Origin: Holdemania sp. Marseille-P2844
GTDB taxonomy: Bacteria; Bacillota_I; Bacilli_A; Erysipelotrichales; Erysipelotrichaceae
Assembly: GCF_900120005.1 (NCBI RefSeq)
Contig: NZ_LT635450.1
Location: 308,996-372,995 of the forward strand
Direction of reading: 5' to 3'
Length of the DNA stretch: 64,000 nucleotides
Numbering within the stretch: position 1 is the first letter of the stretch; every line of letters begins with the position of its first letter. Below are positions 7,192-13,758 of the stretch, in pieces. The translations under genes were made by a program, and so were the position numbers. The notes under the pieces were generated by a model. That model made no database searches. It saw only the letters and a program-made list of their open reading frames with translations, and was not told where the DNA came from.

Positions 7192-7665
7192 TCAGCCTTC
7201 CAGATCCTTCAGGAACTGATCGCACGCCTGATCAAAGCTTGAATACGTCTGAATTCCGTTGGCTTTCAAGCCGCCGATCACAAACGCGTTGTAGCCGATC
7301 GGACAATCCAGGCCGGATGCCTGATTGCGTCCGATCCGGGAATCGGAGTACACCGGGTACAGCTGGATCGGCTTGCCGCTCAGCTTCTTCTCCAACAGAA
7401 TGCCCAGCGCCATGTGGCTGCCGGTATCTTCATTCGCCAGATCCAGGAACACGTGCGTCGCTTCGCACTGGAAATGATAATCGGCTTCAAAGATCGCTGC
7501 CGGCGTCGACGCGCCGCCTTCGTTTAAAGGCAGGTCGATCGGATTGACAAGCTGAACATCGACATCCCGCTTTGCCAGTTCCTGACGCAGCCGTTCCCCT
7601 TCCTTCCGGCGCTGATATTGATCGGCTTCGGTAAACAGCGGGCCGACAAGATAGACCGTGATCAT
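7192..7665 (-). CDS. Nucleoside 2-deoxyribosyltransferase-like protein
   Basis: A 157-residue cytosolic protein beginning MITVYLVGPLFTEADQ, the phosphate-binding first strand of the nucleoside 2-deoxyribosyltransferase family (transfer of deoxyribose between bases, nucleotide salvage). The segment DLANEDTGSHMALGI sits where family members carry their conserved acidic/Gly substrate loop, although it is less canonical than the usual D-x-x-G-T form. The start overlaps the stop of the upstream peptidase gene by the ATGA arrangement (7662-7665), so the two are translationally coupled. It could instead bind a nucleotide without transferase activity. Confidence 0.75.
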   Translation of the reverse strand: MITVYLVGPLFTEADQYQRRKEGERLRQELAKRDVDVQLVNPIDLPLNEGGASTPAAIFEADYHFQCEATHVFLDLANEDTGSHMALGILLEKKLSGKPIQLYPVYSDSRIGRNQASGLDCPIGYNAFVIGGLKANGIQTYSSFDQACDQFLKDLEG

Positions 7666-9712: not shown

Positions 9713-9838
9713 CCACAATGCGCGGGGAAAAAGGATCCTCTTCCGCCGCCGAACACGTCGTCATCGTTTCTTAAGAAACCTGTCATAGACCTTCACAAAG
9801 CGTCATGGGGAAGTAAAGAACTTAAGATCTTTTCCTTT

Positions 9839-9844
9839 TATACT
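9839..9844 (+). promoter_or_regulatory. Possible -10 box of the Van-like operon
   Basis: TATACT about 88 bases before the VanW-like start. The -35 region is not canonical, so an activator may be needed or the call may be wrong. No regulator gene is adjacent. Confidence 0.35.
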
Positions 9845-9931
9845 GAAAGTGACAAACAAGTCACCGGAGCGGCCATGGGAAAGTCATCTTCCGGTGGCAT
9901 AATAAGGGAAACTTCAAGGAGAGTGAATTGT

Positions 9932-10759
9932 ATGAGCCGACGTCGAGTTACGGAATTTCTGCCTTTTCTTCTGCCGCTGCGCAGAAAGCAGAAAATCTGG
10001 TGTTTTTATCAAAAAATGAAGCATGACGGGAATCGTTATGCGCGCAGGCAGGCCGAAGAACGGCTGCCGTATATCCAATATGAATGTACGCAGGGATTAA
10101 TCAATCCTGACAGCGGGTATGATATTCAATATCAATACAACAAGGCCCACAACCTGAAGGTGGTCTCCCGCCGCATGCAGCAGCTGATCATCGAACCGGG
10201 CGAGGTGTTCTCGTTCTGGCAGCTGGCACGGGGCGCCGATCACGATGATCCCTATCTGCCGGGGCTGGGGCTGCACGATGGTAAAATCGTACCGGTCCAT
10301 GGTGGCGGGCTGTGTTTTATGAGCGAACTGTTATATTGGATGGTGCTGCATACGCCGCTGACGGTGATCGAGAAGCATCCGCATCTGGTCATCTCGCTGC
10401 CGGCCAATCCAAATGCGGAAATGCCGGCGGGGATCGACGCGACGATTCAGGAGGGCTGGAGCGATCTGAAATTCCGCAACGATACGGATCAGCCGTTTCA
10501 GCTGATTCTGGACTTTGACGAGGATTCCGTTCACGCGCAGTTCCGATGCGCACAGCCGCCGCGCTGCCGCTACGAGGTGACTGGTTCCGCGCTGACTTAT
10601 TCGCGAAAAAAAGGACAGATCTTCCGCACACAGGATATTGCGCGCACGATCTACGACGCGCACAGCGGTGAACTTGTGCGCAAGGAAGCCTGTTACACCA
10701 GCCGCAGCCGGATCGATTATCCGCTGCCGCCGGAAACTGAAATTATCGAGGAGGACTAA
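9932..10759 (+). CDS. VanW-family protein
   Basis: A 275-residue protein with a VanW domain across about residues 60-240; key parts are the EPGEVFSFWQLA and VHGGGLCFMSELLYWM segments. VanW occurs in vanB and vanG glycopeptide-resistance operons and in many gut Firmicutes, but its biochemical role is not established. No clear signal peptide is seen; the N-terminus is basic (MSRRRVTEFLPFLLPLRRK). The start at 9932 is favoured by AAGGAGAGTGAATTGT; the longer frame from 9875 has no ribosome site. It is the first gene of a tight operon; the ligase start lies 3 bases after its stop. Confidence 0.88.
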   Translation: MSRRRVTEFLPFLLPLRRKQKIWCFYQKMKHDGNRYARRQAEERLPYIQYECTQGLINPDSGYDIQYQYNKAHNLKVVSRRMQQLIIEPGEVFSFWQLARGADHDDPYLPGLGLHDGKIVPVHGGGLCFMSELLYWMVLHTPLTVIEKHPHLVISLPANPNAEMPAGIDATIQEGWSDLKFRNDTDQPFQLILDFDEDSVHAQFRCAQPPRCRYEVTGSALTYSRKKGQIFRTQDIARTIYDAHSGELVRKEACYTSRSRIDYPLPPETEIIEED

Positions 10760-10762
10760 ATC

Positions 10763-11815
10763 ATGAACGAAAAATTGAACGTTGCCGTCCTGTTTGGCGG
10801 CTGCAGCGATGAATACCATGTTTCTTTGCATTCCGCGGCGGGCGTGCTGCGGGCACTGGATCCGCAGCGGTACACAGTTGTAAAAATCGGCATTGATCCT
10901 CAGGGCGACTGGTTTCTCACAAATGCAAGCGCGGCGGAAATCGAAGCAGATCAGTGGCATACAGCGTCGGATCTGCGTCTGCGACTGACCTTGGCTCGCA
11001 GCAACTTTGAATTAAAAAGTGAAAACGGTGAAACTGTAGCCGTCGACGTCTTCTTTCCGGTCCTGCATGGCCGCAATGGCGAGGATGGAACGCTTCAGGG
11101 CATGCTGGAATTGTTCCACATTCCTTTTGTCGGCTGCGGCATGGATGCTTCGCTGCTGGGCATGGACAAGGCGCTCAGCCATCAGCTGGCGCGGCAGAAC
11201 GGGATCGAAGTCAGTCCGTTCATCGTGTTCGCTTATTCTGAGATCGATCAAAAGCGAGAATCGCTGAAACGGCTGCATCTGCCCTGCTTCGTCAAACCGG
11301 CCCGCGGCGGTTCCTCGATCGGCATCACCAAGATCAACGCTTGGGAAGAACTCGACGCCGCCTGCGCGGCAGCGGCCGAACATGACAGCCGGATTTTAAT
11401 TGAAGAAGCCGTCGAGGGTGAGGAAATTGGCTGTTCCCTCCTTCAAACCTGCGACAGCCTCGTGACAGGTGCGGTCGACCGGATTCATTTAAACAGCGAT
11501 TTCTTCGATTATGAAGAAAAATATGTCGATACCCACGCGCAGGTGGAATGTCCGGCGCAGCTGCCGGATTTCATCAGCGAACAGATGCGCTGTCTGGCAC
11601 GGAAGTTGTGGGAAATCCACCATTGTCAGGGACTGGTGCGTGTGGATTGTTTCCTGACCCCGGACCAGCGAATCGTGTTTAATGAGATCAACACGTTGCC
11701 GGGCATGACCGCGACCAGCCGCTATCCGCGCATGATGGGACAGGCGGGTATTCCCTTTGAAACGATTCTGGACACGTTAATTGAAGACGCTTTGCGGCGG
11801 GGGAGGAACGCATGA
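10763..11815 (+). CDS. vanG: D-alanine--D-serine (VanG/VanC-type) ligase
   Basis: A 350-residue ATP-grasp ligase that would join D-Ala to D-Ser (or D-Ala) for the end of the peptidoglycan stem peptide. The N-terminal FGGCSDEYHVSL matches the D-Ala binding loop, and the metal-binding end NEINTLPGMT is at about 307-316. The omega-loop motif near 247-254 reads FFDYEEKY, close to the FDYxEKY of VanG/VanC-type D-Ala-D-Ser ligases and unlike VanA/VanB lactate ligases. The overall sequence recalls VanG (PVLHGRNGEDGTLQG). D-Ala-D-Ala activity cannot be excluded. The stop overlaps the start of the fusion gene by ATGA. Confidence 0.85.
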   Translation: MNEKLNVAVLFGGCSDEYHVSLHSAAGVLRALDPQRYTVVKIGIDPQGDWFLTNASAAEIEADQWHTASDLRLRLTLARSNFELKSENGETVAVDVFFPVLHGRNGEDGTLQGMLELFHIPFVGCGMDASLLGMDKALSHQLARQNGIEVSPFIVFAYSEIDQKRESLKRLHLPCFVKPARGGSSIGITKINAWEELDAACAAAAEHDSRILIEEAVEGEEIGCSLLQTCDSLVTGAVDRIHLNSDFFDYEEKYVDTHAQVECPAQLPDFISEQMRCLARKLWEIHHCQGLVRVDCFLTPDQRIVFNEINTLPGMTATSRYPRMMGQAGIPFETILDTLIEDALRRGRNA

Positions 11816-13635
11816 ACTGCGTACGGCTTGTCAACCGGGAACATCGCCTGGAAGCGGATGAATCTTACTGGACCCGCGAGCTGGTCTGGATTGATGAAAA
11901 CACTCAGCTGCAGCCGGTCTGCGCCCGCGCTTTAAACGCCTGGATTACCCATTGCGGCGGGGAAAACGAAGTGACGTTTGTCAGCGGCTGGCGCAGTTAT
12001 GATCAGCAGCGAACCCTCATGAGCGAAACGGAAAGTGAACGGGGATGGGATTACGCGCATCAGTTCGTCGCCGAGGTGCGGGCCAGCGAGCATCATACCG
12101 GGCTGGCCATCGACCTGGGCATCGCCGGCAAGGATCAGGATCTGATCTGCCCGGATTTCTCCGGTCCTCTGGCGGATCGGATGCGGGAATGCGCCGATCA
12201 GTTCGGCTTTATTTTCCGTTACCCCAAACACAAAACAGAAATTACCGGAATCAGCGAAGAACCCTGGCATTACCGTTATGTCGGACTGCCGCATGCGCAA
12301 ATCATCGCTGATCACGACTGGGTGCTGGAGGAATACGCCGCTTTTCTTAAAGCTTATACCAAGGCCAACCCCTATCGCTATGATGACGGACAACGCCGCT
12401 GGCAGCTGTGGACGCAGCCGCTGGCCGAAACGCTTCCGCCCGCTGAAAACACGTCGGTCGAAAGCTCACAGCTGGATGAAACGACTTGCTTATTCGTCGA
12501 AGCGCTGGATCCTGAACCGATTCCTGAAGGTCGGGATAGGGCCTGGGTCGAGCTGGACGGGATCGCGCTGCGGCACAATTTGACGATCTTGAGAAAAGCC
12601 ATGGCGCCGCAGCAGGAGCTGATGGCGGTCTTAAAGGCCAACGCTTATGGACATGGTCTGGAGCCGACCGCGGATTTCCTGAGCCGGCAGGGCGTTCGGC
12701 ATTTCGCCGTCGCCACCGTCGAGGAAGCCAAGGTGATCCGGGCGATCAATCCGACCGCGGAGATTCTGATCTTAGGCTATGTTCCACCGCAGCGGGCAGC
12801 AGAACTGTCGCGTCTGCATCTCTCCTTAACCTTAACCAGTTACGATCAGGCCTGTCAGCTGGATCAGACCGGCTGTCCGATCAGCGCACATCTGCCGGTG
12901 GACACCGGGATGCACCGTCTGGGTGAAACCGCGGAGGATCTGGACGCCATCGCGCGGTACTATGCGCTGCCTCATCTTCAGATTACCGGCCTTTATTCCC
13001 ATCTTTATGAAGCGGATAACCTGAGCGCTGAAGCCATTGCGCATACCCGGGCGCAGATCGAACGGTTCTTTCACGTCGTGGACGGTCTGAAACAGCGGGG
13101 AATCGATCCGGGCCGCGTGCATCTGCAGGGAAGTTATGGATTTCTGAATTATCCGGAGCTGCGGTGTGATCTTGTCCGCTGCGGAATCGCGCTGTTCGGC
13201 TGCATCGCCCCGTTCCGTTCCCGGATGGCGCTGGATTGGCGGCCAGTTGCTTCCGTCCGCACCCGGATTGCGGCGTTGCGGCCGTTGAAAAAAGGGGAGG
13301 GCGCAGGGTACAATCATGCCTGGGCCGCTCCTTGCGATACGACCGTCGCGATTCTTTCGATCGGTTATTCCGATGGTCTGCTTCGCAGTTCCTCCTTCCA
13401 GGGGGCAGAAGTTCTGATTCATGGACAACGCCGTCCGATCGTCGGCGCGATGTGCATGGATCAATGTCTTGTGGATCTCAGCTCTTTGCCCGCGGCTGTC
13501 GGGGATGAAGTCATCGTGATCGGCAAACAGGGAACCGGCCAAATCTCCGCACTGGAAGTCGCAGAAAAAACTGGAACGATTGTTCCGGAAACGTTAAGCA
13601 TGCTTCGTGGACGAATGCCGCGCATTCTGGTTTAA
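11812..13635 (+). CDS. VanXY-type D,D-peptidase fused to a VanT-type amino-acid racemase
   Basis: One 607-residue frame holds two enzymes that are normally separate. Residues 1-200 form a VanX/VanY-like zinc D,D-dipeptidase/carboxypeptidase: GWRSYDQQ, then SEHHTGLAID with ligands His94 and Asp101, then EPWH with Glu150 and His153. A charged linker covers about 205-243. Residues 244-607 form a PLP-dependent alanine/serine racemase: the PLP lysine is K275 in VLKANAYGHG, the catalytic tyrosine is Y500 in GEGAGYNHAW, and MCMDQ follows. VanT proteins normally carry an N-terminal membrane domain; here the peptidase takes its place and no membrane segment is present, so the protein should be cytosolic. 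The C-terminal YRVPR segment of alanine racemases reads LRGRMPRI. The ATGA overlap with the ligase implies coupled translation. Confidence 0.9.
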   Translation: MNCVRLVNREHRLEADESYWTRELVWIDENTQLQPVCARALNAWITHCGGENEVTFVSGWRSYDQQRTLMSETESERGWDYAHQFVAEVRASEHHTGLAIDLGIAGKDQDLICPDFSGPLADRMRECADQFGFIFRYPKHKTEITGISEEPWHYRYVGLPHAQIIADHDWVLEEYAAFLKAYTKANPYRYDDGQRRWQLWTQPLAETLPPAENTSVESSQLDETTCLFVEALDPEPIPEGRDRAWVELDGIALRHNLTILRKAMAPQQELMAVLKANAYGHGLEPTADFLSRQGVRHFAVATVEEAKVIRAINPTAEILILGYVPPQRAAELSRLHLSLTLTSYDQACQLDQTGCPISAHLPVDTGMHRLGETAEDLDAIARYYALPHLQITGLYSHLYEADNLSAEAIAHTRAQIERFFHVVDGLKQRGIDPGRVHLQGSYGFLNYPELRCDLVRCGIALFGCIAPFRSRMALDWRPVASVRTRIAALRPLKKGEGAGYNHAWAAPCDTTVAILSIGYSDGLLRSSSFQGAEVLIHGQRRPIVGAMCMDQCLVDLSSLPAAVGDEVIVIGKQGTGQISALEVAEKTGTIVPETLSMLRGRMPRILV

Positions 13636-13710: not shown

Positions 13711-13758
13711 GCAGGCAAGATAACGTTTTATATAACGTTTTATCTTGCCTGCTTCTTT
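13711..13758 (+). terminator. Terminator of the Van-like operon
   Basis: GCAGGCAAGATAA (13711-13723) pairs with TTATCTTGCCTGC (13740-13752), followed by TTCTTTG. It may also serve the lipoprotein gene coming from the other side. Confidence 0.8.

Follow-up and report, generated by a model that had tools for sequence, protein, structure and literature searches.

At one locus of Holdemania sp. Marseille-P2844, genes resembling a glycopeptide-resistance operon stand with no regulator beside them, which raises the question of what cell wall precursor they serve and whether they are still controlled. The locus lies in a stretch of 64,000 nucleotides, referred to as the window, and is constructed from three tightly packed plus-strand genes (9932-13635), which encode a VanW protein, a ligase and a fusion protein of 607 amino acids (11812-13635) that joins a VanXY-like peptidase to a VanT-like racemase. 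The sequences point to an intrinsic VanG/VanC-like operon for precursors ending in D-alanyl-D-serine (D-Ala-D-Ser), which is probably switched by an unlinked VanS-VanR pair, and we regard this reading as a likely one.

Predicted chemistry of the three genes

The ligase is the most informative of the three products. Its residues D239, F248 and R320 align with D243, F252 and R324 of VanG, at positions which we take, from the mutagenesis of VanG and VanC2, to decide the choice of D-Ser. The same Asp-Phe-Arg triad was found in the named controls VanC1 and VanN, while the Ddl controls carry Ile/Tyr/Leu (Enterococcus gallinarum) and Gly/Tyr/Met (Mycobacterium tuberculosis) there. This signature supports the D-Ala-D-Ser type that an earlier note on this DNA had proposed. 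The vanW product passes the cut-off of the NCBIfam vanW-gen model (397 bits against 365).

In the fusion protein, the closest sequences of solved structure are VanXY-C (4mur) and VanXY-G (4f78) for the peptidase half and VanTG (4ecl) for the racemase half. The peptidase half preserves both SEHHTGLAID and EPWH; four Holdemania genomes share its SxHxxGxAxD, Glu and His positions without change, and a signal peptide was not seen. The racemase domain retains the pyridoxal phosphate lysine, K275. Domain and profile scans detected no VanT membrane domain in the operon, an unlinked copy not having been sought. In relatives, the membrane half of VanT was observed as separate genes beside soluble racemase genes (L081:8350-9384 and L064:8310-9356), and the two halves of VanT thus come apart repeatedly. 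A structure prediction of the fusion, with a mean predicted local distance difference test score of 48 from a four-row alignment, was not used.

The same genome also has a separate housekeeping Ddl and a separate alanine racemase. The Holdemania Ddl (L002:1063-2295, contig C15) contains a variable Gly/Lys/Ser-rich insert behind its KYLG motif and has a tail reading GTKGTKGTK, and related Holdemania species share these two features; the idea that the insert marks a degenerate enzyme was dropped, as conservation within the genus extends over the entire protein.

From these parts a pathway can be proposed, in which the racemase domain would make cytoplasmic D-Ser and the ligase, judged by its signature residues, would couple it to D-Ala. 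MurF would then add the dipeptide to the precursor, giving a lipid II that ends in D-Ala-D-Ser and binds vancomycin weakly. Because a separate Ddl exists, D-Ala-D-Ala should be available for removal, and the VanXY domain is predicted to hydrolyse it and also to trim those pentapeptides still ending in D-Ala. The joining of both activities in one chain may fix the ratio of D-Ser supply to D-Ala-D-Ala removal.

Inheritance and regulation in Holdemania

A comparison with genomes of related species, suggested as a check in the earlier note, gave the identical order of prolyl oligopeptidase, vanW, ligase, fusion and MATE transporter genes in all four Holdemania genomes. The fusion protein of the window is 89% identical to that of H. 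filiformis DSM 12042, 76-77% to that of H. massiliensis AP2 and 58% to that of an uncultured Holdemania. The ratio of nonsynonymous to synonymous change is low throughout, dN lying far below dS for every operon part, and every part is under purifying selection across the genus. The shared locus bears out the view that the system is intrinsic, and the operon reads as a D-Ala-D-Ser-type cluster that is vertically inherited across the genus, contains a new fusion and has its regulator elsewhere in the genome. Alternatively, the van cluster might be silent or a remnant and leave the wall unaffected in nature. The difficile case (PMC4405338) would be a precedent, which counts in favour of this alternative; purifying selection on all parts and the strong conservation of the promoter across the genus argue against it, and it is the least probable of the alternatives weighed here.

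The fusion itself was found only in Holdemania among 395 genomes of the class and 60 relatives searched. No relatives of it were detected in viral contigs, and the operon DNA did not match phage records. Plasmid matches spanning both domains were considered as further fusions and rejected, since they fall under separate vanXY and vanT/alr annotations; in the three that were inspected, those of VanC, of VanN and of a Paenibacillus plasmid, the two domains belong to separate genes. No report of a VanXY-VanT fusion was found in the full-text literature, with most subscription journals outside the coverage. Because vanXY runs four bases into vanT in vanC, and split vanW-ligase-VanXY-racemase orders occur in the family, the fusion together with the loss of the membrane domain would have been a short evolutionary step.

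In the remaining van clusters of the family, vanR and vanS stand immediately before the operon. With a family VanS as query, a nearly full-length protein was matched in all four Holdemania genomes (41% identity and E 2.7e-84 in the genome studied here, where the second-best kinase reached E 2.9e-32), and the adjoining VanR passes its curated cut-off (377 bits against 350). This pair has an M16 peptidase gene on one side and ffh on the other, and its neighbours are identical in the four genomes. The earlier description of an operon "without VanR/VanS" is accordingly true only locally.

Before vanW lies a candidate operator composed of six half-sites (GTCATC at 9760, TTAAGA at 9771, GTCATA at 9782, TTCACA at 9792, GTCATG at 9802 and GTAAAG at 9813), which ends 20 bp before a candidate -10 element, TATACT. 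The consensus promoter scan did not list this hexamer (9839-9844), and a good -35 hexamer is absent at the usual spacing, as expected for an activated promoter. Within the 260 bp before vanW the repeat block is strongly kept, though synonymous change relative to H. massiliensis is close to saturation, and the spaced block pattern, at zero mismatch, has a single match per Holdemania genome, at the vanW promoter. A strict three-site pattern applied to the van promoters of relatives gave nothing above chance and was replaced by a looser half-site matrix, built only from the promoters of vanRS-linked relatives. This matrix ranks 9760-9818 first in the 64 kb, and the five-site score was reached in 0 of 300 shuffles; the evidence is good but not blind, because the relatives' half-sites had been picked by eye after the likeness was seen.

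Since vanRS is unlinked and the promoter repeats resemble those before vanRS-linked relatives, regulation is probably intact and exerted in trans, VanS-VanR turning the operon on through the direct repeats at 9760-9818. A rival reading holds that the operon is a streamlined D-Ser system which is no longer regulated and is constitutively on, as in the system of two genes attributed to Clostridium innocuum. It draws on the failure to find a regulator gene beside the operon and on the attribution of C. innocuum resistance to two chromosomal genes (PMC8888209). The vanRS pair in four of four genomes, the conserved operator-like block that is unique in each, and the retention of VanXY and VanW, unlike the two-gene form, speak against it, and it is unlikely, if the least unlikely of the alternatives. 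The word "streamlined", used in the earlier note, likewise fits poorly with a vanRS that is present, though unlinked, and with a promoter that has a conserved VanR-like candidate operator.

Against the preferred reading of a D-Ala-D-Ser operon switched in trans, several results have to be weighed besides the picking of half-sites by eye. No operator-like repeats were found upstream of vanR, and the Holdemania VanS scores 360 bits, below its cut-off of 400. The best NCBIfam model of the ligase, VanG, is matched at 386.6 bits (cut-off 495), the VanXY model by the peptidase half at 183 bits (cut-off 250), and the catalytic part of VanT by the racemase half at 406 bits (cut-off 460); the three parts are relatives of the curated families rather than typical members. 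Moreover, Pro592 of the Holdemania racemase stands where VanT-G, -C and -N have Asn and alanine racemase has Tyr354; the alanine-racemase Tyr is lost, yet the racemase substrate is less sure. That proline, with a score of 299 bits for the general alanine-racemase model (cut-off 168), favours a spare alanine system, in which the ligase would make mostly D-Ala-D-Ala, the racemase would act on alanine, and VanXY would recycle or edit wall peptides. We consider this improbable: the ligase signature residues are all of the D-Ser type, the genome already has Ddl and a separate alanine racemase, and a D-Ala-D-Ala dipeptidase next to a ligase making D-Ala-D-Ala would be futile.

Holdemania holds a van-type cluster that has settled as a trait of the genus, with two enzymes joined and the probable sensor relocated, and gene-neighbourhood scans would for that reason call it unregulated.

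The layout given in the earlier note, three packed genes with 3-base and 4-base joints, holds in coordinates and gene names: three bases separate vanW from the ligase gene, and the ligase and fusion genes overlap by ATGA (Table 1). A divergent prolyl oligopeptidase gene lies upstream, and a convergent small open reading frame and the MATE transporter gene lie on the other side, in agreement with the earlier statement that no VanH, regulator or mobile-element gene directly flanks the operon. The terminator placed after the operon is probable, being an inverted repeat with a weak T run that was read by eye and that the consensus terminator scan did not list. Adjoining the prolyl oligopeptidase gene, a protein of 157 amino acids (7192-7665, minus strand) has no Pfam match and by eye resembles nucleoside deoxyribosyltransferases.

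Table 1. Features of the operon and its surroundings, in window positions
Feature	Positions	Strand	Basis
Candidate VanR-type operator, half-sites at 10-11-bp steps	9760-9818	+	conservation; pattern; matrix scan
Candidate -10 element TATACT	9839-9844	+	by eye; conserved in alignment
Ribosome-binding site AAGGAG, before vanW	9916-9921	+	sequence; kept in four Holdemania
vanW, 275 aa, function unknown	9932-10759	+	NCBIfam vanW-gen; Pfam VanW
D-Ala:D-Ser-type ligase, 350 aa, D239/F248/R320	10763-11815	+	Pfam; nearest model VanG; signature against named controls
VanXY domain of fusion, about residues 1-200, predicted D,D-dipeptidase/carboxypeptidase	11812-12411	+	Pfam VanY; 4mur and 4f78 alignments
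VanT-like racemase domain of fusion, about residues 240-607, K275, Pro592	12529-13635	+	Pfam Ala_racemase_N and _C; VanTG 4ecl; residue comparison
Inverted repeat, 13-bp perfect arms, probable terminator, weak T run	13711-13752		by eye

murF-linked ligases across Erysipelotrichaceae

A second form of the pathway, outside the window and judged more interesting than the Holdemania operon, emerged from the family. Matches to the window ligase at E 1e-40 or better, Ddl-type matches included, occur in 128 of 244 family genomes and 48 of 59 genera. The Asp-Phe-Arg signature is present in 93 of the 109 VanG-type ligase rows that were read, among which some loci are counted twice. Outside van clusters, the arrangement is murF, then the ligase, then a soluble racemase (80 rows of the ligase tree), and the tree leaves the placement of Holdemania, with van clusters or with murF operons, unsettled. 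At seven loci, one of them profile-confirmed, murF and a D-Ser-type ligase are joined in a single open frame of about 770-815 codons (L074, L126, L135, L146, L147, L149 and L156), a second kind of fusion in the pathway.

The racemases beside Asp-Phe-Arg ligases have Asn in 79 cases, Pro in 3 (Holdemania), and Val, Ile and Tyr in 1 each, with 7 incomplete or unaligned. Where the ligase has Tyr and Leu, the neighbouring racemase has Asp or Ser (10 of 10), and next to the single Asp-Tyr-Arg ligase it has Tyr; many of these rows are close kin, so that the counts are not independent events. The murF operons with Tyr/Leu in place of Phe/Arg form a clade (L159, L160, L162, L163, L165, L167, L168, L170, L171 and L172), which may have reverted to D-Ala or acquired a third specificity.

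When 22 near-complete genomes were searched with the ligase domain of Pfam, each gave one strong D-Ala ligase; the remaining matches are ATP-grasp proteins that score much lower, and many have the length of CarB. In 19 this single ligase is the murF-linked Asp-Phe-Arg enzyme, whereas G026 and G029 have the Tyr/Leu signature and G197 has a van cluster with Tyr. The two-gene form, in which murF is followed by a D-Ser-type ligase and a soluble racemase, appears to be a housekeeping operon in the family. A Ddl-type ligase was found at E 1e-50 in 14 of the 15 genomes that have van-type clusters and in 21 of the 69 that have murF-type operons, where the latter figure depends on search sensitivity and the Fisher p of 8e-6 is too small given the relatedness of the genomes. 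This pattern fits a retention of VanXY where D-Ala-D-Ala needs removal.

One genus represented among the 19 genomes, g60, was assigned to Erysipelothrix by the genus primer pair MO101/MO102 (PMC9416451). The exact genus pair had no match; the MO101 site, carrying 1-2 mismatches, is present in 9 of the 12 genomes of g60 against 0 of 12 genomes of other tested genera, and MO102 is exact, at a product of 401-408 bp, in all six loci examined, the one scanned lying inside a ribosomal RNA operon. The primer sites were seen in several ribosomal RNA copies of g60 genomes (L197 to L201). The species-specific pair had no match, and g60 is for this reason named to genus level only. Its genomes carry the murF-ligase-racemase operon with Asp-Phe-Arg and Asn, whose ligase is the only one found there.

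For E. rhusiopathiae, a vancomycin minimum inhibitory concentration of 32 mg/L was given in a 2022 genome paper (PMC9637936). Its authors put forward a vex23-vncRS locus and, on the strength of the murF annotation, assume D-Ala-D-Ala ends, but they treat the cause of the resistance as unsettled and ask for further work. The sole, murF-linked, D-Ser-type ligase would be a simpler candidate cause of the resistance. No D-Ala-D-Ser report for Erysipelothrix was found in the full-text literature, within the same journal coverage as above. More broadly, we give an even chance to the proposal that D-Ala-D-Ser is the default precursor ending in much of Erysipelotrichaceae, Erysipelothrix included, through the sole-ligase murF operon, that resistance is its consequence, and that van-type clusters are kept where a D-Ala-D-Ala ligase coexists. 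If true, the intrinsic vancomycin resistance of Erysipelothrix follows from normal wall synthesis, and a "resistance" pathway is normal wall synthesis in part of a gut family.

Comparison with known van systems

With the murF-ligase-racemase operons of its family, the Holdemania locus shares the Asp-Phe-Arg signature and a soluble VanT-type racemase without membrane domain; it differs in having vanW and VanXY and in lacking murF, the upstream gene being the divergent prolyl oligopeptidase in all four genomes. The two-gene system of C. innocuum, compared by description only, belongs to the same broad family and produces D-Ser-ended precursors from a chromosomal ligase and racemase (PMC8888209), to which Holdemania adds vanW, VanXY and an unlinked vanRS. 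Of the likeness to C. innocuum drawn in the earlier note, the kinship with Erysipelotrichaceae stands, while the two-gene counterpart in the family proved to be a different operon, that of murF, ligase and racemase.

The vanC cluster of Enterococcus gallinarum is likewise intrinsic, with the order ligase-VanXY-VanT and the same ligase signature. In contrast with Holdemania, it carries vanR and vanS directly after these genes, has no vanW, and encodes VanT as a single membrane-bound protein whose substrate position holds Asn. The vanG cluster of Enterococcus faecalis BM4518 (PMC4405338) likewise runs from vanW through a D-Ala:D-Ser ligase and VanXY to VanT, and its ligase has the same D, F and R residues. 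Relative to it, the Holdemania ligase is about 42% identical and falls outside the VanG clade, vanRS is unlinked, vanY and vanU are absent from the operon, and VanXY and VanT, the latter without its membrane domain, are united in one chain.

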